Positions 14,712 through 27,376 of a stretch of DNA of 45,078 nt are shown here, one piece after another. Below the pieces are notes generated by a model, which ran no database searches, was not told the origin of the DNA, and saw nothing but the letters and a program-made list of their open reading frames with translations. The stretch is taken from NCBI GenBank assembly GCA_027006785.1, contig JALTFR010000038.1, positions 1 to 45,078 of the forward strand. Reading direction: 5' to 3'. Every line of letters starts with the position of its first letter. Positions within the stretch are counted from its first letter, which is position 1. The position numbers and the translations under genes were made by a program. This DNA is from Thermoplasmata archaeon. Lineage in GTDB: Archaea > Thermoplasmatota > Thermoplasmata > WALJ01.

Positions 14712-14945
14712 TCACTTCTTCAATACCTCACGATAAACCCTTCTTATACATATCTCCCTCCAGTCCGGGTCAAGTATTGATTCATCTATGACCTTTCTGG
14801 CAAGAGCAGGAAGATTTTCAGGAGGGAAAGTTCCCGGGGTATAGCCCATGCGCTTTATCTCACCCCGTATCATATACCTTGCTATGGGGCCGGCATATTC
14901 TGTTATTATGTCGCTCATCCCTGCTATCTTCTCCTCCACCTTCAT
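14712..14945 (-). CDS. Small helical protein, stand-alone copy of a domain found three times in this window
   Basis: 77 residues, no membrane segment, predicted mostly helical. Core motif, residues about 17-55: AGPIARYMIRGEIKRMG, then a Pro-rich turn (YTPGTFPPENLP), then ALARKVIDES. The same pattern (P-x-I-[AG], a helix with KxQ/GxE, G, short turn, second helix) appears at residues 15-55 of the TPR protein at 18604-19854 and in the 85-residue protein at 24265-24522. The ATG overlaps the stop of the dCACHE-HAMP gene by 4 bases, so the two are translationally coupled and probably work together. I do not recognise the family; an adaptor or output role is an inference. Confidence 0.8.
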   Translation of the reverse strand: MKVEEKIAGMSDIITEYAGPIARYMIRGEIKRMGYTPGTFPPENLPALARKVIDESILDPDWREICIRRVYREVLKK

Positions 14946-16438
14946 TTTTTCCCCCTCTCAAGCTCCCTCATGGCAACCCTGAAGCTGTTGACCATTCTTC
15001 CAAATGCCTTCTGAAGCTCTCCCAGTTCATCCGAGCTGTCGACCTCAATCCCCTTTACATCGAAGTTTCCCCTGCTCACTTCGTCAGCATATCTCGTGAG
15101 CCTTTCTATCCGCCTTGTGTATCCGTCTATAATGATGAAAGATATGAAGAAAAGAACCACAGCTATGGAAAGCTGTACAACAGCAAGATATATTACAGAA
15201 CGTGAGGCACTCTCCGCCGAAGAGTTTGAGGCCGCGTCCACTTTTTCCTTTACCTCCTCCATGTCCACAACACTGACGAATTTCCATCCTGTGCATCTCA
15301 TGGTTGAGTACACAAGAGTTACATTTCGCCCGTTGAGAATTGTCTCCACAGTGCCAGTGCTACCGTTGAGTATCTCTCTGACACTCCTGTTGAAAGGTTC
15401 GTCTCCCTGTGACAGGTCCTTTCCCAGTGTGGAATTTGAGGGTGCTGCCAGAGCAATGCCATCAGATGTCATTAAAAATGCAAAGCTCGTGTTGGATATG
15501 TAAAAAGACCTTGTTTTCTGGCTTATTGTGGTTAGCAGTATATCGAATCCCACGACCCCTGCAAAGGAGCCGTTTTTCATGACCGGTGCGGAAGATGTTG
15601 CGACGGGGCATCCGGTCAATTCGTCGAGATATACCGAAGACCAGACCTCATGCCCGCTGTCCCTAGCCTTAACATACCATGACCTTACAAAGGGATTGAA
15701 AAGCGGAGAGAGGTATGTTACTGACGGAATGAGTACTGTAAAACCCGAGTTCTCATCCGTGTAATAGCTCCAAAGAAGGTCGTTGATGTTCCTGAATGAA
15801 TACAGCATATCTGCCACAGGCATGAGCTCATCAAGCTGTTCCCTGTACTGTGGAAGCATTACAGAATACAGGAAATCATAAAGAGACCTACTTCCGTTGT
15901 TGAAAAGTGCCTCTCCCAGCGAGTTTATAGCATTGTATGCGCTCCGGTTGATGTAAAGTTCAGAGTAATTGAGAGAGGGTGTGTGAACGAGATAATAGAG
16001 GGCTGAATCAACCATTTCAGGGTTCCCTGAAACTGCAAGCATCTCGTCATAATAGTGATTTGATATGTTTCCTTTCATTATTCCATCCACAAGGCTTGAA
16101 TTCACCTGTGTCAGAAGATACCTGCTTGTCCAGAGAAATCTGCCTCCGGAGTAGTGCATTCCTATGTGCGATGGAATATCTTTCGAGGCAGCATCCGCCG
16201 ACAGCTCTATGCTGTGCATATAGTTCTCCATGCAGAGGGTGGCATTTGTATTTAGTGCGATAGAACTGTTGAGCATCTGTTCCGTAAGTACCTTTTCCAT
16301 GCTGGAAGATACCTCTTCCCCAACAGAATGGTGAAGCATATCTCCAAATCCGAGAGTGACTGCAGAAGAGAGAAGCAGAAGTAAGACTATGAAAAGGGTA
16401 CCTTTCTTTCTTATTCCCCACTTGATTTCTGATTTCAT
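14942..16438 (-). CDS. dCACHE-HAMP membrane receptor without an output domain
   Basis: 498 residues from the ATG at 16438; a GTG at 16462, about 25 bases after a TATA box, is an alternative leaderless start. Order: short basic N-terminus; membrane helix about 13-33; large extracellular region with a dCACHE sensor (motifs NPFVRSWYVKARDSG, and later GVVGFDILLTTIS); second helix about 403-425; HAMP (RRIERLTRYADEVSRGNFD ... DELGELQKAFGRMV). The chain then stops about 15 residues later. Typical receptors of this type continue into a methyl-accepting, kinase or cyclase domain; this one has none, and no remnant in another frame was seen. The coupled 77-residue gene probably provides the output. The ligand is unknown; dCACHE domains often bind amino acids or other small metabolites. 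Confidence 0.88.
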   Translation of the reverse strand: MKSEIKWGIRKKGTLFIVLLLLLSSAVTLGFGDMLHHSVGEEVSSSMEKVLTEQMLNSSIALNTNATLCMENYMHSIELSADAASKDIPSHIGMHYSGGRFLWTSRYLLTQVNSSLVDGIMKGNISNHYYDEMLAVSGNPEMVDSALYYLVHTPSLNYSELYINRSAYNAINSLGEALFNNGSRSLYDFLYSVMLPQYREQLDELMPVADMLYSFRNINDLLWSYYTDENSGFTVLIPSVTYLSPLFNPFVRSWYVKARDSGHEVWSSVYLDELTGCPVATSSAPVMKNGSFAGVVGFDILLTTISQKTRSFYISNTSFAFLMTSDGIALAAPSNSTLGKDLSQGDEPFNRSVREILNGSTGTVETILNGRNVTLVYSTMRCTGWKFVSVVDMEEVKEKVDAASNSSAESASRSVIYLAVVQLSIAVVLFFISFIIIDGYTRRIERLTRYADEVSRGNFDVKGIEVDSSDELGELQKAFGRMVNSFRVAMRELERGKK

Positions 16439-16565
16439 GTTCGTTCCGCTCCTTATCTCCACAATATTGTAACTATTGAAACTATATACAATTTTCGGTT
16501 GATTTTCGCTGATATGGGTGAGACCGAAATTTCCTTATACGGAAGCGGATTGAAGAGGGATTCCC

Positions 16566-17639
16566 ATGAATACGGAAGAAAGGCTCGAACTCGTGATTCG
16601 GAACACGCAGGAGATAGTCACTGTGGATGAACTTAGAAAGCTGCTGGAAGAGAAGGAGAACCCCACTGCATACATAGGCTTTGAGCCCTCCGGGTTCGTG
16701 CACATAGCCCAGGGAATGATATGCGCTCAGAAAATAAGGGATATGCAGGAAGCGGGCTTCAGGGTGAAGATATTCCTCGCTGACTGGCATGCCTTCATAA
16801 ACGACAAACTTGGAGGGGATATCGAGAACATAAGGGCCTGCGGCGAGTACATGAAGGACGCATTCCTGTCGCTTGGCATAGACCCGGACAGGACGGAGTT
16901 CGTATGGGCCTCCGACATAATAACCCCTGATTACTGGGAGAAGGTCCTGAGGATAGCGAAGGTGTCCAGCCTTGCCCGTGTGAAGAGAGCGCTCACCATC
17001 ATGGGGAGGAAAGAGAGCGATGTGGAGACCGATGTTTCAAAGCTCATCTACCCTCCGATGCAGGCCGCTGACATCTATCAGCTGAATGTTGATGTTGCAT
17101 ACGGTGGAATGGACCAGAGGAAAGCGCACATGCTTGCCAGAGATGCGGGGGAAAAACTCGGATGGAAGAAGCCCATAGCGCTCCATACACCGCTTCTTTC
17201 GGGCCTTAAGGGCGGAAGCAGAATGGACCCTGTAGAGGCAAAGATGTCCAAGAGCGACCCTGATTCCTCCATACTCATACACGACAGGCCTGAGGACATA
17301 AGAAGGAAGATGAAGAAGGCGTACTGCCCCGAGGGGGTTGTGGAAGGCAATCCTGTCATGGACATAGCAAGGCACATCGTCTTTCCTCAGAAGGGAAGCC
17401 TTCTCATAGAGAGGCCGGAGAAATGGGGTGGAAACCTCGAATTCTCCTCCTATGAGGAACTGGAAAAGGTGTTCATTGCAAAGGAACTGCACCCGATGGA
17501 CCTGAAGACAGGGGTGGCCGAGGCTCTTGTTGAACTGCTTGAACCTGCCAGAAAGTACTTTGAAGAGCATCCTGAGAACCTTAAAAGAGTAAAGGATATC
17601 ATAGAAAGGAGAGCAGATAATAGTAAGAAGAGGCGATAG
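16566..17639 (+). CDS. tyrS: Tyrosyl-tRNA synthetase, archaeal type
   Basis: 357 residues. Class I synthetase with the HIGH-like motif in PSGFVHIAQG (about residues 41-50) and the KMSKS loop in AKMSKSDPDSS (about 223). The N-terminal helix and the short anticodon domain match archaeal/eukaryotic TyrRS. It charges tRNA-Tyr. A TATA box (CCTTATACGG, about 16531-16540) lies 25-35 bases upstream of a short leader with GAGGG. It is transcribed divergently from the receptor gene. Confidence 0.95.
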   Translation: MNTEERLELVIRNTQEIVTVDELRKLLEEKENPTAYIGFEPSGFVHIAQGMICAQKIRDMQEAGFRVKIFLADWHAFINDKLGGDIENIRACGEYMKDAFLSLGIDPDRTEFVWASDIITPDYWEKVLRIAKVSSLARVKRALTIMGRKESDVETDVSKLIYPPMQAADIYQLNVDVAYGGMDQRKAHMLARDAGEKLGWKKPIALHTPLLSGLKGGSRMDPVEAKMSKSDPDSSILIHDRPEDIRRKMKKAYCPEGVVEGNPVMDIARHIVFPQKGSLLIERPEKWGGNLEFSSYEELEKVFIAKELHPMDLKTGVAEALVELLEPARKYFEEHPENLKRVKDIIERRADNSKKRR

Positions 17640-17667
17640 AACGGACAAAAACGAGATTTCCGGCCTT

Positions 17668-17793
17668 ATGTTCGCGGGAATTCTCATCCTGTGCATAGGA
17701 ATTGGGCTGCTCGTCGACCAGGTGGGGGCCGCCACACTTATAGGAGTCGGAGCAGGATTTCTCGGAATGGCCGCAGTGAAGTGGAAAAAATAG
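17668..17793 (+). CDS. Small hydrophobic membrane protein
   Basis: 41 residues from the ATG at 17668. Almost all residues are hydrophobic or Gly: two membrane helices (MFAGILILCIGIGLLV and TLIGVGAGFLGMAAV) and a basic tail (KWKK), as in many archaeal two-helix miniproteins. The frame is open upstream through 18 charged codons (ending RTDKNEISG) to 17605, inside the tyrS end. A GGAG at 17608 sits just before ATA codons but no ATG or GTG, so the protein may be longer if a rare start is used. It lies 28 bases after tyrS and is probably co-transcribed. Function unknown. Confidence 0.55.
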   Translation: MFAGILILCIGIGLLVDQVGAATLIGVGAGFLGMAAVKWKK

Positions 17794-17948
17794 AAAGAAG
17801 GCATCTTTAAAGCTTAACCGGCCATTCGCATGGTCTGTGCTGATGAATGAGGATATCCACATCGGTTTTCGCGCTGATGAAAGATAATGTGATGCCGGCT
17901 ATGAGGAAATAAAAGAAAGGTTTTTTAATACTGCCCTTATCTCGTGAT

Positions 17949-18617
17949 ATGGAACTGAGGGCTGACCTGCATGTGCACACGGCACACTCCACAGATGGAA
18001 AGGAGGCCGTCAGAAGGGTGGTTCACCACGCAAAGAAGATAGGTCTTGGTGCCATTGCCATTACGGATCACAATGTGATTACCGCTTGGACTGAGGCTCT
18101 CAGTCAGGGAGAGAAGGACGGAATCATAGTTATACCTGGAGAAGAAATCAGCTCTTCGGAAGGACATATCCTTGCTTACGGCATAGAGAAACGGATAAAG
18201 AAAGGGATGAGCCCGGAAGAGACTGTGGAGGAGATACACGAGCAGGGGGGAGTGGCCGTGGCGGCGCACCCGTATCGTTCAGGCAATGGTCTCGGAGCCG
18301 ATGCAGTCAGAAAGGTTGATTTCGATGCTGTTGAAACCCTTAATTTCGGATCCTCTGCCAGAAGCAATGAAAAAGCGGAGGTACTTGCCAGAGAACTCGG
18401 TCTACCGATGACGGGGGGGAGTGACGCTCACACCCTTGACGATATAGGAAAGGCATACACAGTCTTTGTGGACGTTGAGTCCGTGGAAGATATCCTTGAA
18501 GACATCAGAAGAGGGAATACCGAGCCCCGAGGAAACTCTCAGACCTTCGGAGCAATGCTGTCGCACAATACGAGAAAACTTACGAAATGGGCTAAAAGAG
18601 GTTTCAGGAGGGTGTGA
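17949..18617 (+). CDS. PHP-domain metal-dependent phosphoesterase
   Basis: 222 residues, a full PHP domain and little else. Metal ligands: HVHTAHS (residues 8-14), AITDHN (about 39), the Glu of PGEEISSSEGHILAY, the His of AAHPYRSG and the final GGSDAHTLDDIG. Stand-alone PHP proteins hydrolyse phosphate esters such as histidinol phosphate, nucleoside 3',5'-bisphosphates or 5' ends of oligonucleotides; the substrate here is not clear. A T-rich TATA-like TTTTTTAATAC lies about 25 bases before the ATG. The 3' end overlaps the convergent TPR gene by 14 bases. Confidence 0.9.
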   Translation: MELRADLHVHTAHSTDGKEAVRRVVHHAKKIGLGAIAITDHNVITAWTEALSQGEKDGIIVIPGEEISSSEGHILAYGIEKRIKKGMSPEETVEEIHEQGGVAVAAHPYRSGNGLGADAVRKVDFDAVETLNFGSSARSNEKAEVLARELGLPMTGGSDAHTLDDIGKAYTVFVDVESVEDILEDIRRGNTEPRGNSQTFGAMLSHNTRKLTKWAKRGFRRV

Positions 18618-19854
18618 ATGACTCACATTCCTCTGCCTTTTTATCGTTGCCAATCTCTCTGAATATTCTGGAGGCCTCTCTGACCTTCGCCTTTCCATCT
18701 GGATTTCCGTTTTCATAGAGCATCTTTCCATATCTGCACAGGGTGACAGCCATTCCGTATGGAGTGTCATATCTTTCTTTCAGTCTTATGCTCTCCTCAA
18801 ATCTCACGGCAGCTTCCTCATAATCGCCTTTTGCCGAATATACCATGGCAAAACGCTCTTTTGCAAGGGCTATGCCTACATTGTCCTTCATCTCCTCGTA
18901 GGCCTCCAGAGCGTTCTTTGCATATTCTTCGGCAGCCCAGTAATCGCCCATACGAATATACAGCTCGGAGAGGTTGAGGTAGGCCCATGCCTCCGTGAGA
19001 AGATAGCCTATGCTTCTGGAATACTCCACACAAAGAAGATAATAGTTCTCTGCATCCCTTAGATTGCCCATGTCCTCATATGTGACACCTATGTTCGTGT
19101 ACATCTTGGCAATCTCCTCCTTGGCATCGGATTTCTCGAAGTAGTTGAGGGCTTTCATGGAATACTCAAGATCCTTTTCGATGTCCCCGAGTTCACAATA
19201 TGCATTCGCCATCCCCATGTATGCCAGGCCCATCAGGCGATGATCCCCCAGAATCTTTGCCACATCAAGAGACCTTTTGAAATTCTTTATCGCATCCTCT
19301 TCATCACCTGACCACCATGAAACAGCTCCTTTTTCATAGAATAGTTCTGCCTTAAGGTCACGGTCCCCGATTTTTTCGAGTACCTTACCTGCCTCTTTTA
19401 GAAGAGAGCGTGCATATTCAAAGTCCTTCTTTCTGGAGAGGATGCGAGCCATCTTCATGTCTATCTCCACAACCTTCCTGCTAAACCCATGATTGAGGGC
19501 TATTTCCCTCGCCATTTCGAGATTCCTTATGGCCTCATCCCATTCTCCTGAAAAATATGCACTATATCCGATTTCAACGAGAGTTTGAACTCTGTGCTCA
19601 GGGCTCTTTTTTTCACTGTAAAGCTCGCTTACCGATACGAGAGAAAGTATGCGTTTGCGCATGGACCTCGCTCTCACGGTGCCGAACATAGAGGCAACCT
19701 CGGCCATATGCCTCGCTATCTCCGGGATGTGATCCGGCTCAAGAGTCTCCGGCGATATTCCTATGTCTCTCATCTGCTTCTCGAGCGCATAGGCTCCTAT
19801 CTCTGGCATCTCCTCCTCCGCTATCTGTAGGAGAGCCTCATACGCACCTGGCAT
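18604..19854 (-). CDS. TPR-repeat protein with an N-terminal copy of the small helical domain
   Basis: 416 residues, no signal or membrane segment. Residues 1-65 carry the helical domain also seen at 14712-14945 and 24265-24522 (MPEIGAYALEKQMRDIGISP, then HIPEIARHM). Residues about 85-405 are at least eight tetratricopeptide repeats (AYFSGEWDEAIRNLEMAREI and, later, ENYYLLCVEYSRSIG). TPR arrays bind partner proteins, so this looks like a regulator or scaffold, with the small domain as its specific contact. A TATA box (CTTTTTAAACA, about 19875-19885) sits about 25 bases before the ATG, so the message is probably leaderless. Confidence 0.88.
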   Translation of the reverse strand: MPGAYEALLQIAEEEMPEIGAYALEKQMRDIGISPETLEPDHIPEIARHMAEVASMFGTVRARSMRKRILSLVSVSELYSEKKSPEHRVQTLVEIGYSAYFSGEWDEAIRNLEMAREIALNHGFSRKVVEIDMKMARILSRKKDFEYARSLLKEAGKVLEKIGDRDLKAELFYEKGAVSWWSGDEEDAIKNFKRSLDVAKILGDHRLMGLAYMGMANAYCELGDIEKDLEYSMKALNYFEKSDAKEEIAKMYTNIGVTYEDMGNLRDAENYYLLCVEYSRSIGYLLTEAWAYLNLSELYIRMGDYWAAEEYAKNALEAYEEMKDNVGIALAKERFAMVYSAKGDYEEAAVRFEESIRLKERYDTPYGMAVTLCRYGKMLYENGNPDGKAKVREASRIFREIGNDKKAEECESFTPS

Positions 19855-19989
19855 GATGCTTCTTCATAGGTTTTTGTTTAAAAAGCTATCGCGTTTTTTT
19901 CAGTTCCCTCATTTGTGTGTTTTTACACATATAGACAAAAAGTGAAGTTTCTTTTACATTAAGACGAAGACAAAAAGAGAAAAAACTGT

Positions 19990-20037
19990 TATATACGAGG
20001 TCAATCTACCTCATTCGTTCCCTTTTGAAGAAAAGGG
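19990..20037 (+). promoter_or_regulatory. acs promoter with two inverted repeats
   Basis: TATA box TATATA at 19990-19995. Just downstream, GAGGT (19997-20001), six bases and ACCTC (20008-20012) form a perfect inverted repeat where a repressor would block initiation. Further on, CCCTTTT (20020-20026), GAAG and AAAAGGG (20031-20037) form a seven-pair hairpin at or just after the expected start site. A strong ribosome site, AAAGGAGG (20058-20065), then precedes the ATG at 20073. Upstream, AGACAAAAAG occurs twice (19932 and about 19969). Confidence 0.6.
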
Positions 20038-20072
20038 AGAACAATCGTCAAACAGTAAAGGAGGATTCAAAA

Positions 20073-22013
20073 ATGTCCGAAGAGATGGTGTTCAACCCGC
20101 CGAAGAGAATCTCAGAGAAAGCATATGTAAAGAGCATGGATGAGTACAGAGAGATATACGAGCGCTCCCTGAAGGACCCGGAGGGATTCTGGGCGGAGCA
20201 GGCCGAGATAATCGAGTGGTTCAAGAAGTGGGACAAGGTCCTGGACTACGACTTCAAAGAGGGAAAGATACAGTGGTTCATTGGCGGAAAGACAAACGCT
20301 GCCTACAACTGCCTTGACAGACACCTGAAGGATAAGGCCGACAAGAAGGCCCTCATCTGGGTGGGCAACGAGCCCGGAGAGGAGAAGATATACACATACA
20401 GAGAACTCTATGAGGAGGTCAACAAGCTCGCGAACGCGCTCCGCAAGATGGGTGTGAAAAAGGGCGACAGGATCTCCATATACCTGCCGATGATACCCGA
20501 ACTGGCCATATCTCTCCTTGCATGCGCGAGGATAGGTGCCATACACTCCGTTGTCTTCGGAGGCTTCAGCGCCGATGCCCTTCGCGACAGGATAGTGGAT
20601 GCCGAGGCGAAGGTCCTGATAACCTCGGACGGCTCATTCAGGGGAAAGAAGAAGATACCGCTGAAGGTCAATGCAGACAAAGCCGTCGAGGGCCTGGACT
20701 TCTTCGAGAAGATGATAGTGGTGAAGCGCACAGGAATGGATGTTGAGATGAAGGATGGCAGGGATGTCTGGTACCATGAGATAACCGAGAACGAGAGCAC
20801 CGAGGCACCGTACGAGGAGATGGATGCGGAGGACCCGCTGTTCATACTCTACACCTCAGGTTCAACAGGAAAGCCGAAGGGCGTCCTGCACACCACCGGA
20901 GGATACATGGTCTATGCCAGCATGACCCACAAGTATGTCTTCGATGTGCATGACGACGACATATACTGGTGCACCGCTGACATAGGCTGGGTGACAGGAC
21001 ACAGCTACATCGTGTACGGACCGCTCTCCAACGGTGCTACCACCATAATGTTCGAGGGAATACCCAGCTATCCGGCGCCTGACAGGTTCTGGGAGATAGT
21101 TGAGAAGTACAAGGTAACCATATTCTACACCGCACCCACTGCCATAAGGGCCCTGATGAAGGAGGGCGACGAGTGGGTGAAGAAGCACGACCTCTCGAGC
21201 CTCAGAGTGCTGGGAAGCGTCGGAGAGCCCATAAACCCGGAGGCATGGCTCTGGTACTACAGGAATGTGGGACACGAGCAGTGCCCGATAGTGGACACGT
21301 GGTGGCAGACCGAGACAGGAGGAATACTGATAACACCTCTGCCCGGAGCGACACCCATGAAGCCCGGTTCAGCGACATTCCCGTTCTTCGGGGTTGAGCC
21401 CGGGATAATGGATGATAAGGGAAATGAGCTGGAAGGCAACGGCGTCGAGGGCGCTCTGGTCATGAAGAGGCCGTGGCCCGGAATGGCGAGGACAGTTTAC
21501 GGAGACCACAAGAGGTTCATAGAGACCTACTTCTCCATGTATCCCGGCATGTATTTCACCGGAGATGGGGCAAACAGGGACAAGGACGGCTACTACTGGA
21601 TAACCGGAAGGATAGACGATGTCATCAATGTCTCGGGCCACAGGCTCGGAACAGCAGAGATAGAGAGCGCTCTGGTGGCTCACCCCGCGGTTGCTGAGGC
21701 AGCGGTTGTCGGATACCCGCATGAGCTCAAGGGCTGGGGCATATACGCCTATGTCATACTCAAGAACGACTACGAGCCGAGCGACGAACTGAAGAAGGAA
21801 CTTGTGAAGCATGTGAGGGCTGAGATAGGGCCGATAGCCACGCCTGACAAGATACAGTTCACAGAGGGGCTGCCGAAGACCAGGAGCGGAAAGATAATGC
21901 GCAGGATACTCAGGAAGATAGCCGCAGGAATAACGGACAAGAGCGCTCTAGGAGACACTTCCACACTGGCCGACCCGACAGTCGTGGATGCCCTCATAGA
22001 GGGCAGACAGTAA
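20073..22013 (+). CDS. acs: Acetyl-CoA synthetase (AMP-forming)
   Basis: 646 residues. The ATG at 20073 is chosen over one 16 codons earlier because AAAGGAGG lies eight bases before it and the earlier ATG falls in a hairpin near the predicted transcript start. Core motifs: [14 protein letters not shown] (ATP loop), [10 protein letters not shown] (the Trp restricts the pocket to acetate or propionate), the TGD and [15 protein letters not shown] hinge, and the catalytic Lys in [10 protein letters not shown], a usual site of regulatory acetylation. It activates acetate to acetyl-CoA, which could feed the mevalonate operon nearby. Codon choice is strongly biased, suggesting high expression. Confidence 0.96.
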
Positions 22014-22085
22014 AACCCCTTTCACTTTCTACTATTTTTCTTTAAAGAAGGAAAAGGAACAAATATATGAGAGATATGCGGCATC

Positions 22086-23486
22086 ATGGCCGAGAAGGAG
22101 CTCAAAAAGGAACTTGGCATGAAGGAGGTCATCGCCACGGTCATGACATCCGTCATAGGCGGAGGGCTCTTCCTGACAACAGTGCAGATACAGAACCAGG
22201 TTCCCGTAGGCTCCAATGTGATATTCTCCTACCTTATCGCTGCGATACCCGCATTCTTCGTGGCGCTTTCGTATGCGGTGCTCTCCTCGGCCATACCGTC
22301 CTCGGGCGGGGACTACATCTACATCTCGCGCATACTTGACCCCACAACAGGTTTCCTTGTGACATGGGTGCGATGGTTCGGGATGGTGGCAGGCATAGCT
22401 GCTATAGCCATAGGTGACCTCGCGCTCATCTCCAACATGTTCACAGCGGTCGGTTGGGACTCCGCAACGGCCTTCGTGGCGGACTATGAGACATGGATAG
22501 CCATCGCCATAATACTCATTTTCCTGAGCATAAACTACTTCGGGGTGAAGATATACGGATGGGTGCAGGACATAATGCTCCTGATACTCCTTGCCGGAAT
22601 ACTGGTTTACATATTGCTCGGGCTTCCGCATGTTAGAATGGAGCATCTGACCGCCTCTGCCCAGGGAGGCATGCAGGATATAGTCAAGGCCTCGTCCATC
22701 GTCTTCTTCAGTTACATCGGATTCGCAGCGATAGCCGATGCGGGGGGCGAGGTGAAAGACGCTAAAAGGAACCTTCCGAGAGGGATAGTGATATCCGTCA
22801 TAGCCATAGCTACACTCTATGTCATGGTGGCACTGGTGACATACGGGAGCGCTGACCTGGACTCCATCATAGAGGCGGGGAATGTCCCTGCTGTGGCCAT
22901 GCTCTTCCTTCCCTCGTTCATAGCCCTGTTCATCTCCTTCACAGCGTTCATAGCCCTTGTATCGGACATAAACCCCTCAATTCTGGCCACATCCAGGCTT
23001 TCCTTTGCATGGTCAAAGGACGAGGTGGTGCCCAAAAGGCTCAGCGAGCTGAGCAGGTATCATACGCCGAAATGGACACTTGCCATGAACGGTGCCATCG
23101 CCATATTCATAGTCCTCGCATTCAAGGACTTCATAGAGGCCATAGACATAACCACGATAGCGATACTCATAACATACTCCATGGTCTGCCTCGCAACCTT
23201 CGTGATGCCCTACAAAAGGCCGGACCTGTGGAAGAAGGCGGAGGTAAAATACAGGGGAACATGGCTGATAAGCATAACCGGCATAGTAACGACCCTTCTC
23301 CTTCTGGGGTACCTTATACAGACCTCGCTGACGCAGTTCATGACAGTCGTCATATGGATCGGGATAGGGGCTGTGGTCTATCATCTGACAAGGGACAAAC
23401 ACCAGCTTGACTGGAGAATACTCAGGGAGAAGACGAAGGCCCTGAAAGAGATGGAAGAAGATATCCTTAAAGACCTGAAAAGATAG
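22086..23486 (+). CDS. APC-superfamily amino acid permease
   Basis: 466 residues with about twelve membrane segments. The first helix has the APC substrate motif (VIGGGLFLTTVQ) and segment 6 follows SSIVFFSYIGFAAIADAGGE, typical of amino acid/polyamine permeases. The C-terminus is a short charged tail (MEEDILKDLKR). An AT-rich TATA-like AAATATATG lies about 25 bases before the ATG, so it has its own promoter despite following acs by 72 bases; a T-rich stretch between them can end the acs message. Substrate not determinable. Confidence 0.9.
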   Translation: MAEKELKKELGMKEVIATVMTSVIGGGLFLTTVQIQNQVPVGSNVIFSYLIAAIPAFFVALSYAVLSSAIPSSGGDYIYISRILDPTTGFLVTWVRWFGMVAGIAAIAIGDLALISNMFTAVGWDSATAFVADYETWIAIAIILIFLSINYFGVKIYGWVQDIMLLILLAGILVYILLGLPHVRMEHLTASAQGGMQDIVKASSIVFFSYIGFAAIADAGGEVKDAKRNLPRGIVISVIAIATLYVMVALVTYGSADLDSIIEAGNVPAVAMLFLPSFIALFISFTAFIALVSDINPSILATSRLSFAWSKDEVVPKRLSELSRYHTPKWTLAMNGAIAIFIVLAFKDFIEAIDITTIAILITYSMVCLATFVMPYKRPDLWKKAEVKYRGTWLISITGIVTTLLLLGYLIQTSLTQFMTVVIWIGIGAVVYHLTRDKHQLDWRILREKTKALKEMEEDILKDLKR

Positions 23487-23550
23487 AATGCGGGACAAAT
23501 CTGAGCAAAAGACTTATATTCATATATCAGAGTGCGCTTTCAGTGGTAAA

Positions 23551-24264
23551 ATGAATACTGAAAGATACAAAAAATTCGTTGACATGCTGGTAGAAAAGCA
23601 CGAAGCAAGCTGGGCGGCTGTTATACTCGATAACGGAGATATACCTGCATACAGAGCGCACGATGAGAAGAACTCCGAGAGGTTCCTTCGCTCCACAAGA
23701 AGCTTCTTCTGGACCATGATGAGCATGGGAGATATGGTTGACATGCCGGACCTCGATGGAAAGTATCTGGAGGTCATCTGGAATCAGAAGTACTTCTACA
23801 ACTTCCTCTACATGTTCAGGCTGGAGAACGAGATAGTCATGCTCGCGACGAACAAGAGGATGGAGGAGTTCATGATAGAGCTTGTATCCGATATGGATGC
23901 TGAGATGGCGCCTCAGATTCCCGGTCTTATAGGCTTCGGAATAGGCGACTATGACGGGAACCCGATATCCACATACATAGACATGGATGCCATGCTGGAG
24001 ATGGGCGACGGGAAGGAATACGGCGAGGATGAGGTGAAGAGGATATTCGAGGATGCCACCAAGATGACCTTCGAGAAGTTCCTTTACATGGGAAAGGCAG
24101 GGTTCGGAGAGGGAAAGTACATGGAGATAGAGTGGGAGAAAGTGAGCGGCTGGATGTTCCCCTACAAGGACATGGTGGCGGCCGCGATGTTCACGACAGG
24201 AAAGGTGGACACGATGATAAATGTGCTGTCCTACCTCCTGGAGAACATGCCTGACGGTGATTGA
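23551..24264 (+). CDS. Tandem roadblock/LC7-like protein
   Basis: 237 residues from the ATG at 23551; a TATA box (CTTATATT, 23513-23520) lies about 30 bases upstream, ruling out the earlier ATG at 23488. Two similar halves each read helix, beta hairpin, helix, three strands, helix. First half: WAAVILDNGDIPAY ... GKYLEVIWNQKYF ... EIVMLATNKRMEEF. Second half: GLIGFGIGDYDGNPIST ... GKYMEIEWEKVSG ... DMVAAAMFTTGKVDTM. This is the roadblock (MglB/longin-like) pattern, whose members regulate small GTPases or act as dimer platforms. The fold call is mine by eye. The next gene starts directly at its stop codon. Confidence 0.75.
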   Translation: MNTERYKKFVDMLVEKHEASWAAVILDNGDIPAYRAHDEKNSERFLRSTRSFFWTMMSMGDMVDMPDLDGKYLEVIWNQKYFYNFLYMFRLENEIVMLATNKRMEEFMIELVSDMDAEMAPQIPGLIGFGIGDYDGNPISTYIDMDAMLEMGDGKEYGEDEVKRIFEDATKMTFEKFLYMGKAGFGEGKYMEIEWEKVSGWMFPYKDMVAAAMFTTGKVDTMINVLSYLLENMPDGD

Positions 24265-24522
24265 ATGGCAGACGCGGAAGTGGAGGGGGCCCTGGAGAAG
24301 ATAACCGTCTTCCTTCAGAGGTGGTATCCGCCTGAAATCGCTCCGCTGGTGGTGAAGAAGCAGATACAGATCACCGGCGCGATAAGGGAGGAGATGAGCG
24401 CCAAGGACATAAACCTGCTTCTGAGCAGGATAGAGAAGGTCATACTCCCGTCATTCATGAGCCCTGCAGAGGCCAGAAGGGAGATAATGAAACTGAGAAA
24501 GCAACTGGGCATGAAGTTCTGA
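24265..24522 (+). CDS. Small helical protein, third copy of the shared domain
   Basis: 85 residues. The ATG follows the TGA of the roadblock-like gene without a gap, so the two are coupled. The centre (YPPEIAPLVVKKQIQITG, then INLLLSRIEKVILP) aligns with AGPIARYMIRGEIKRMG of the 77-residue protein and MPEIGAYALEKQMRDIG of the TPR protein. It lacks cysteines and membrane segments. As in the receptor pair, the small protein is encoded directly downstream of a sensor- or platform-like partner. Unrecognised family; adaptor role inferred. Confidence 0.8.
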   Translation: MADAEVEGALEKITVFLQRWYPPEIAPLVVKKQIQITGAIREEMSAKDINLLLSRIEKVILPSFMSPAEARREIMKLRKQLGMKF

Positions 24523-25778: not shown

Positions 25779-27176
25779 TCATCGCTTCATTTTCCTCATG
25801 ATAATCTCTCCGGCAAGAAGGATAGTTCCCGATATGCCTATTGCGATGACCCCGGGAAGGAAGGGTGTGTTGATTGGGTGGAGCGCTGAGAGAACGACGA
25901 ACGATTCTCCCGCCAATATTGACAGTATCGCAAGGGGAGCGCTCCTCTCCTTTGAATACAGGATGTAGATGAATGCAGGGGCAAGAACCGCAAGGCCTGA
26001 GAATGAGTTCTTCAGAAGGAAGCTCATGATGTCCGAGCCGCTTTTCAGGAAGAGATATGCGGTTATGATGGTGAAGAGCGCCATTATCCATGTGATGAGC
26101 ATTCCTGCCTTCACTTCATCCATTTTCTTTCCGATGTTCAGGTCCCTGACGAACATTGTGGATATGGAGAAGAGCTGTGAGTCCGCGGTTGACATGAGCG
26201 CGGAGAGAGCGCCGAGCATCACGAGGTAGTAGAGCCATTTCGGTGTGTACCTTTCTATCATCGCTATCATCACCTGGTTGGTGCCGGCCTCTATGCCCGC
26301 GCCCCTTGCCCATACACCGATTAGAACAGGTATCAGGAAGAGAAAGGATATCACGAACGGGTAGAGCACCATGGTGCTTTTCAGGGCCTTCTCGTCCTTT
26401 GCGGTGTAGAACCTTGAGAAGAGCTGGGGGAACATGGGGTCAGCGAATATCCAGAGCACCATGAAGGAGAACCAGATGCTCACTGTGAAGTAGCCTCCTC
26501 CCCTTACGAACAATTGCGGGGCCTCGGAGTATGCGGAATCTCCGGCGGCCTGAAATCCTCCGAGGGCCGATGCGATGAAAATGCCAGCGAGCACCATTGC
26601 CGAGAACATCAGTATGCCCTGCACCATGTCGGTCCATCCCGATGCCCTCATGCCGCCTACGGACACATAGAAGGCTATGGAAAGGGTGATGACGAGCGCT
26701 CCCCCGAAAGCGGATATCCCTGTGAGGGATGCGATTATGTATCCTCCACCTACGGCTTGAACCGTGAGATAGGGTATTGTGAAGATGACCATCATGAGCA
26801 TCGTGAGTATCTGCAATGGCTTCGAGCCCGCTTCTCCTCCGATGAGCTCCGCAGGGGTGACATAACCCTTCTCCTTTCCAAGCCTCCACGCCTTCCTTCC
26901 GAGGATGTAGAACATGATGGGCATGAAAGCGGTTCCGAGCGCCATAATCCCGTACTGACCGAAGCCGAGGCGATATGCCGAATCGGGAAAACCCAGGAAG
27001 AAGAAGGCGGAGAAATTAGTGGCGGTCATTGTGAAGAAAAGAATTGCTGTCCTGAATCCCCTCGATGCAAGGAAATAGTCGTCCGAGCCCTTTCTCTTGA
27101 TTCTGTCGGCGTATATTCCAAGGGCGATGAGGAGAATGATGTAGAGAACTATGAAAAACACTGCAATGGTGTCCAT
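25779..27176 (-). CDS. Sodium:solute symporter (SSS family)
   Basis: 465 residues from the ATG at 27176, preceded by GGAGG eight bases away; a GTG one codon upstream is an alternative. About thirteen membrane segments. Family marks: FLASRGFRTAILFFTMTATN near the N-terminus, GGMRASGWTDMVQGILM in the middle, and ALMSTADSQLFSISTMFVRD. These carriers take up solutes such as proline, pantothenate, sugars or short carboxylates with Na+. The substrate cannot be assigned, but a small partner membrane protein is encoded just upstream, as for the carboxylate and pantothenate branches. Confidence 0.92.
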   Translation of the reverse strand: MDTIAVFFIVLYIILLIALGIYADRIKRKGSDDYFLASRGFRTAILFFTMTATNFSAFFFLGFPDSAYRLGFGQYGIMALGTAFMPIMFYILGRKAWRLGKEKGYVTPAELIGGEAGSKPLQILTMLMMVIFTIPYLTVQAVGGGYIIASLTGISAFGGALVITLSIAFYVSVGGMRASGWTDMVQGILMFSAMVLAGIFIASALGGFQAAGDSAYSEAPQLFVRGGGYFTVSIWFSFMVLWIFADPMFPQLFSRFYTAKDEKALKSTMVLYPFVISFLFLIPVLIGVWARGAGIEAGTNQVMIAMIERYTPKWLYYLVMLGALSALMSTADSQLFSISTMFVRDLNIGKKMDEVKAGMLITWIMALFTIITAYLFLKSGSDIMSFLLKNSFSGLAVLAPAFIYILYSKERSAPLAILSILAGESFVVLSALHPINTPFLPGVIAIGISGTILLAGEIIMRKMKR

Positions 27177-27376
27177 CACTCATCCCTCCAGATGTATTTC
27201 GAGAAAAGGATGTAGTAGATCCCTGTCGCTATGACGATCGCCATGCTCCAGATAACCCAGTATGGCATCCCTGCGATATCCGGCCCTCCTTCGTTCCACT
27301 CCCAGATATCGATGGAAAGAGCCATTAGGAGAAGGAATCCTGCTGAGAAGACCATTTTAACGGACAGTCCGGCCAT
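27176..27376 (-). CDS. Small partner membrane protein of the symporter (DUF3311-like)
   Basis: 66 residues from the ATG at 27376, with GGTGAT before it. Two membrane helices (about 5-22 and 37-57) are joined by a loop with GMPYWVIW; the end is IWRDE. Small two-helix proteins of this kind (DUF3311, DUF997 and relatives) are encoded with SSS symporters and are thought to help assembly or transport. The stop overlaps the GTG of the symporter. Confidence 0.75.
   Translation of the reverse strand: MAGLSVKMVFSAGFLLLMALSIDIWEWNEGGPDIAGMPYWVIWSMAIVIATGIYYILFSKYIWRDE

Follow-up and report, generated by a model that had tools for sequence, protein, structure and literature searches.

Three genes within 10 kb of an archaeal contig had been credited with one small helical domain, each time next to a sensing or interaction module, which raises the question of what this domain is, whether it is the same in all three and what it might do there. 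The window, that is, the whole stretch of 45,078 nucleotides analysed here, is contig 38 of a 1.33-Mb metagenome-assembled genome (MAG), 90% complete, of a Thermoplasmata archaeon. The three open reading frames (ORFs) lie where the initial annotation placed them: P0001 (14712-14945, minus strand) encodes a stand-alone protein of 77 residues coupled to the receptor gene P0005; P0002 (18604-19854, minus strand) encodes a protein of 416 residues in which the domain (19633-19854) is fused to a TPR array; and P0003 (24265-24522, plus strand) encodes a stand-alone protein of 85 residues, starting directly after the stop codon of P0004, the gene for a tandem roadblock/longin protein. As annotated, each of the three thus sits with a sensing or interaction module, respectively a dCache-HAMP receptor, a TPR array and a roadblock/longin protein. 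We propose, with a probability of about one half, that the domain is a STAC-type four-helix docking or relay module which links receptors and scaffolds to a nucleoside triphosphatase (NTPase) switch.

Profile comparisons identify the three segments as copies of a single domain. Profile-profile alignment connected the receptor (HAMP) class with the TPR class at E = 1.3e-10, the roadblock class with the TPR class at E = 4.4e-7 and the roadblock class with the HAMP class at E = 1.9e-5. In a leave-class-out test, whereby each copy was scored by a profile built without its own partner class and compared with 2000 shuffles of that copy, P0003 scored 45.1 bits, P0002 47.2 bits and P0001 29.6 bits, against at most 9.6 bits for the best shuffle of any copy (at most 8.6 bits for P0001). 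Direct pairwise likeness is weak (E = 0.026 for P0001 against the N-terminus of P0002), and a bridging family of small proteins was recovered by searching 60 relatives with P0001 and P0003. The alternative, namely small helical bundles that are unrelated and resemble one another by chance, would fit a direct pairwise identity of only 10%-20% between the segments, and helical repeats can mimic one another; nevertheless, scores of 30-47 bits against shuffles that never exceed 9.6, together with profile-profile E-values down to 1e-10, make it highly improbable, and we consider it already refuted at the sequence level. The shared helical unit of the initial annotation has accordingly held up, but not its length, which is about 75 residues in four helices instead of about 45. 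A profile search of the same genome yielded six copies of the domain; one further match from the first such search (G000:C42, E = 0.26, adjoining FtsZ) was discarded because the profile searches did not recover it.

The closest known relative appears to be the STAC domain. Its type stand-alone representative is AF1502 of Archaeoglobus fulgidus, which occurs with the receptor AF1503; stand-alone STAC proteins have 60-90 residues, share an LGPx(x)A motif and are genomically coupled to AF1503-like receptors, in which HAMP is the sole cytosolic part (PMC4834066). The STAC fold is a four-helix bundle in which two hairpins are joined by a loop, typically nine residues long (PMC5715377). The best match of our pooled profile in the PDB was AF1502 (5A1Q), with E = 0.022 when the profile held 29 rows and 0.0012, at rank 1, when it held 68, and the AF1502 stretch outscored all 5000 shuffles with the pooled, HAMP-class, TPR-class and KQC-class profiles. 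The AlphaFold2 model of P0003 (predicted local distance difference test, pLDDT, 93; predicted template modelling score, pTM, 0.83) has helices at residues 3-17, 26-37, 46-63 and 67-80, forming two helical hairpins with an 8-residue loop between them. The P-x-I-[AG] pattern, noticed from the sequence at the outset, marks the turn from helix 1 to helix 2, where STAC has its LGPx(x)A motif. A modified form of this motif is seen in the receptor class alone: the G and P of AGP are invariant in its 19 rows, x-A or x-G comes next in most of them, and A takes the L position (AGPIA in P0001). P0002 and P0003 have PEIGA and PEIA there.

Searches of Pfam and NCBIfam, with single proteins as well as with all 29 or 68 members, gave no credible family for the domain, and phmmer searches of the PDB with P0001 alone and with P0004 alone gave nothing useful. 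The domain had been called unrecognised, which is true in so far as Pfam and NCBIfam hold no model of it, but it is STAC-like, with AF1502 as its best profile match in the PDB; nor is its novelty supported, the receptor-coupled form being STAC (PMC4834066). A comparable small four-helix relay element between input and output is found in the SLC5-histidine kinases CbrA and CrbS (PMC13022988, PMC5715377, PMC7096432), in which, however, STAC is the middle domain of a single chain ending in a histidine kinase, whereas the copies described here are either proteins in their own right or terminal domains. The bacterial multidomain STAC joins SLC5 and two-component domains, a link that defines this form but not the stand-alone one and that is not matched here, where no histidine kinase was found in the genome and the SLC5 gene (25779-27179) does not share an operon with the domain.

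The receptor encoded by P0005 (14942-16462, minus strand) is AF1503-like, with an N-terminal transmembrane segment, an extracellular dCache domain (15272-15712; Pfam dCache_1, E = 6e-17), a second transmembrane segment, a HAMP domain (14984-15118; Pfam HAMP, E = 1.2e-10) and a 13-residue tail, in agreement with its initial description as a dCACHE-HAMP receptor. HAMP occupies residues 449-493 of 506 and is followed by no other domain, so that it constitutes the sole cytosolic part, and the P0005 stop and P0001 start share four bases, ATGA (14942-14945). P0005 was the single HAMP gene found in a HAMP search of its genome, and its homologues in four relatives (G001-G004) retain the next gene. As in AF1503/AF1502, translational coupling joins a small protein to a receptor in which nothing but HAMP is cytosolic; in the receptor class, a GPxxA-type turn again connects the first two helices, and the P0003 model again shows four helices. 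The differences are that the sensor of P0005 is a dCache domain and that roadblock, TPR, Ras-GTPase, AAA-TPR and KaiC-like proteins also have copies of the domain, in the same chain or in an adjoining gene.

In the roadblock pair, P0004 (23551-24264, plus strand; likely start ATG at 23551 in a frame open from 23488, a 258-residue ORF) has no Pfam hit, and its description as roadblock-like proved right by predicted fold. The AlphaFold2 model (pLDDT 78, pTM 0.77) shows the order H-E-E-H-E-E-E-H twice, that is, the alpha-beta-beta-alpha-beta-beta-beta-alpha topology of roadblock/longin domains, and Foldseek matched it mainly to roadblock/longin proteins, including MglB, LAMTOR, Asgard roadblock, Mon1-Ccz1 and Fuzzy-Inturned. 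These proteins are mostly regulators of small GTPases. With Mon1-Ccz1, Fuzzy-Inturned and LAMTOR, P0004 shares by Foldseek the fold class only, at about 10% sequence identity. When the genome was searched with PF03259 (Robl_LC7), three other genes matched but P0004 did not; this protein is thus best described, on its modelled structure, as roadblock/longin-like by fold and not as a member of the Robl_LC7 family.

The TPR protein P0002 matched the domain profile at E = 9.2e-21 and Pfam TPR_12 at 1.4e-33. Some 55 of the survey matches listed sit in ORFs of 395-533 residues, and the nine proteins of this size that were scanned, P0002 included, all combine the domain with TPR.

Among 250 genomes of the class that were surveyed, 70 have the domain, with up to 12 copies per genome, whereas just two genomes besides the present one matched at E <= 1e-6 in a phylum sample of 194. 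The relatives named in a scan by one conserved pattern, which covers the KQC subclade only, are Thermoplasmata, DHVE2-group and Methanomassiliicoccales MAGs. Neighbour-gene families were taken from about 100 loci, with gene calls in the relatives being mechanical and several contigs short. HAMP-ended receptors lie upstream of the domain in 19 of these loci, overlapping it by 4 bases in 10 cases and by 8 bases in 4; Pfam HAMP was detected in 17 of the 19, and no further output domain is visible in their C-terminal sequences. P0004 occurs in 6 of the 250 genomes, from three genera, and is followed by the domain in all six. The partners are kept in relatives for all three arrangements: HAMP receptors in 19 loci, the tandem roadblock protein in 6/6 genomes and TPR fusions in many. 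Close same-strand spacing is common, accounting for 34% of adjacent pairs in the examined genomes, and for this reason gap statistics were rejected as proof of coupling; we rely instead on the repeated partner families and on the overlaps of 4 or 8 bases.

The clue to a possible output comes from outside the window. The same genome encodes roadblock proteins and Ras-like GTPases, and one of the latter, P0007 (Pfam Ras, E = 1.1e-38), is directly followed by a further copy of the domain, P0008, a pair kept in G001-G004. In other genomes, a Ras GTPase (by Pfam Ras) and a C-terminal copy of the domain form single ORFs, one of which (G007:C158) was matched at E = 2.6e-10 by a profile without any GTPase-class row. 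With the GTPase-class profile, 59 of 120 genomes, representing 31 of 57 genera, gave matches; these mostly form the C-terminal end of ORFs of 270-320 residues, and one genome (G028) has as many as 21. About a dozen of these ORFs were examined directly. Whether in one ORF or as adjoining genes, Ras-like GTPase and domain are associated in dozens of Thermoplasmatota genomes. Ras-like GTPase genes also occur in tandem, often one with a single domain and the next with a C-terminal STAC-like domain (L209, L210, L213, L215, L218, L220, L223-L225 and L230). In Streptomyces conservons, a histidine kinase, a roadblock protein and a Ras-like GTPase are found together (PMC4316618). The present system resembles MglA/MglB and the conservons in combining a roadblock protein with a Ras-like GTPase in prokaryotic signalling, with the conservons adding a sensor kinase (PMC4316618), and differs in its tandem roadblock protein, which is coupled to a STAC-like protein, in the STAC-like domain of its GTPases and in having a sensor other than a kinase.

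We envisage the following mechanism. Each copy of the domain comes with a constant partner, either fused to it or translationally coupled, in line with a tree in which the partner classes mostly group as clades. Binding of a ligand to dCache would shift the HAMP domain of P0005, whereupon P0001, docked on the HAMP end, would change state or be released, thus providing the missing output part of the receptor. A docking surface of this kind would likewise be reached by the tandem roadblock/longin protein P0004 through P0003, and by the TPR scaffold of P0002 through its own copy of the domain. The likeliest endpoint would be an NTPase switch, above all the Ras-like GTPases with the same domain at the C-terminus or in the next gene; signals would then flow from the receptor to the GTPase as a hub, and the copies may feed one common pathway. 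The initial suggestion of a common adaptor is strengthened by the Ras-like GTPase fusions and the other partners, whereas for a shared pathway we can offer only inference. More tentatively, STAC-like domains might constitute a common plug that lets output-less HAMP receptors, roadblock regulators and TPR/AAA scaffolds act on Ras-like GTPases, replacing two-component signalling in Thermoplasmatota, an extension that we regard as doubtful.

Neither a histidine kinase nor CheA was found in the genome, where HATPase_c matched only GyrB and TopoVI-B, although such a gene could lie in the unassembled part of the MAG; therefore, P0005 probably signals by a route other than two-component. This incompleteness is one of several points that weigh against a docking module between receptors and GTPases. 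Foldseek comparison of the P0003 model with the PDB gave no significant match, with 5A1Q absent among the 50 matches listed; with the roadblock-class and GTPase-class profiles alone, AF1502 did not rise above 5000 shuffles, and these two classes connect to the STAC group solely via intermediates. Because of the limits set by these tests, we assign, on sequence grounds, the receptor and TPR classes to the STAC superfamily and call the roadblock and GTPase classes STAC-like, joined to it through intermediates. Furthermore, CbrA without STAC has a lowered but not abolished output (PMC7096432); P0001 is tied to P0003, P0002 or a GTPase by the shared domain alone; and relatives do not have the three genes in one place. 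As regards a shared pathway, the clades of the domain parted long ago, each retaining a partner of its own, and the three window copies fall in three well-separated groups of the tree.

These last points bear also on the possibility that the same domain performs separate jobs, with each clade being a private subunit of its partner (a cap, an assembly helper or a local regulator), without a common pathway and with the proximity within 10 kb due to chance. Indeed, roadblock, GTPase, KaiC and receptor copies form supported clades, partner classes are largely recovered as clades in the tree, each pair is tightly coupled to one partner, and the clustering within 10 kb is not kept in relatives. Conversely, the domain turns up with receptors, with roadblock proteins and with Ras-like GTPases alike, kinds of protein that act together in conservons (PMC4316618), and the searches of the genome yielded no two-component output through which the receptor could signal. 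We regard separate jobs as a serious possibility, albeit one at well under even odds. Less probable by far is that the domain regulates solute transport, the role originally suggested for STAC, and has as its targets two nearby transporters, both confirmed by Pfam: an amino-acid permease (22086-23486) and a sodium:solute symporter of the SSF/SLC5 family (25779-27179, on the strand opposite to P0003 and 1.3 kb away). STAC was named for its association with SLC5 and AF1503-like receptors are often near transporters (PMC4834066), and in CbrA, STAC docks beneath the SLC5 domain (PMC13022988); however, the symporter lies on the other strand with genes intervening, the roadblock pair has neither transporter beside it in those relatives that were examined, and the recurring partners are receptors, GTPases, roadblock and TPR proteins and ATPases.

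As regards the locus itself, the three window copies belong to different groups and therefore did not arise by recent triplication. The surroundings in relatives differ: the receptor pair is accompanied by P0006 and an HMG-CoA synthase cluster, the TPR gene lies divergently beside an acetyl-CoA synthetase gene and the roadblock pair has different flanks each time; given these different flanks, the clustering within 10 kb is probably due to chance, and the notion of one system at this locus, as opposed to one domain, finds no support. P0006 (13964-14650, minus strand), an HTH_3 regulator (E = 4.9e-12) encoded after P0001, keeps its gene order in G001, G003 and G004 and is a conserved neighbour, but probably one tied to the HMG-CoA synthase cluster. 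P0002 and the acetyl-CoA synthetase gene are divergent at 18604-22013 of the window and in three relatives (L192, L193 and L194), with the orthologues of P0002 adjoining acetyl-CoA synthetase in G001, G002 and G003. In Pseudomonas and Vibrio, acs is under the control of the STAC kinase CrbS (PMC5715377), a parallel that may be coincidental.

The roughly 100 loci also revealed further neighbours of the domain. KaiC-like ATPases lie downstream of it, mostly in a three-gene cassette in which genes for a helical protein of about 100 residues, the STAC-like protein and a KaiC-like ATPase of about 241 residues mostly overlap or abut (L130, L131, L136, L147, L149, L150, L152, L155, L159-L162, L166 and L169); the first protein of the cassette has no credible Pfam family. 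Eleven AAA/TPR proteins lie upstream of the domain. On contig C17 of the present genome (L067:3434-7706), a 1346-residue protein consisting of an N-terminal clostripain-type peptidase, a membrane segment, an AAA ATPase and TPR is followed after a few bases by a STAC-like protein, and AAA-TPR proteins in relatives have the same follower. The other neighbours comprise seven membrane proteins, six roadblock-like proteins, three ABC-2 permeases and two CheD proteins. A membrane protein of about 250 residues, without a Pfam family in the two cases scanned, is encoded immediately after the domain copies of one distinct clade (L138, L170, L177, L178, L179, L182 and L185). In L133 and L142, the STAC-like protein stands downstream of CheD and is followed by a further protein of about 82 residues. 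Finally, two STAC-like proteins occur in tandem in L081:1605-2111 and L168:3318-4054, the latter pair preceding a KaiC-like gene.

The receptor-coupled STAC arrangement was known from AF1503/AF1502, whereas the tandem roadblock/longin, TPR, AAA-TPR, KaiC-like and Ras-like GTPase partners are new here, being unmentioned in the STAC texts consulted, the original 2015 J Mol Biol paper not among them. Collectively, these results outline a large domain family of Thermoplasmatota outside the coverage of Pfam and NCBIfam. Signalling by AF1503-type receptors, which end at HAMP with no recognisable effector, has been left open, and STAC itself is without a settled function; the Ras-like GTPase fusions, together with the coupled tandem roadblock protein, provide a concrete and testable downstream candidate.

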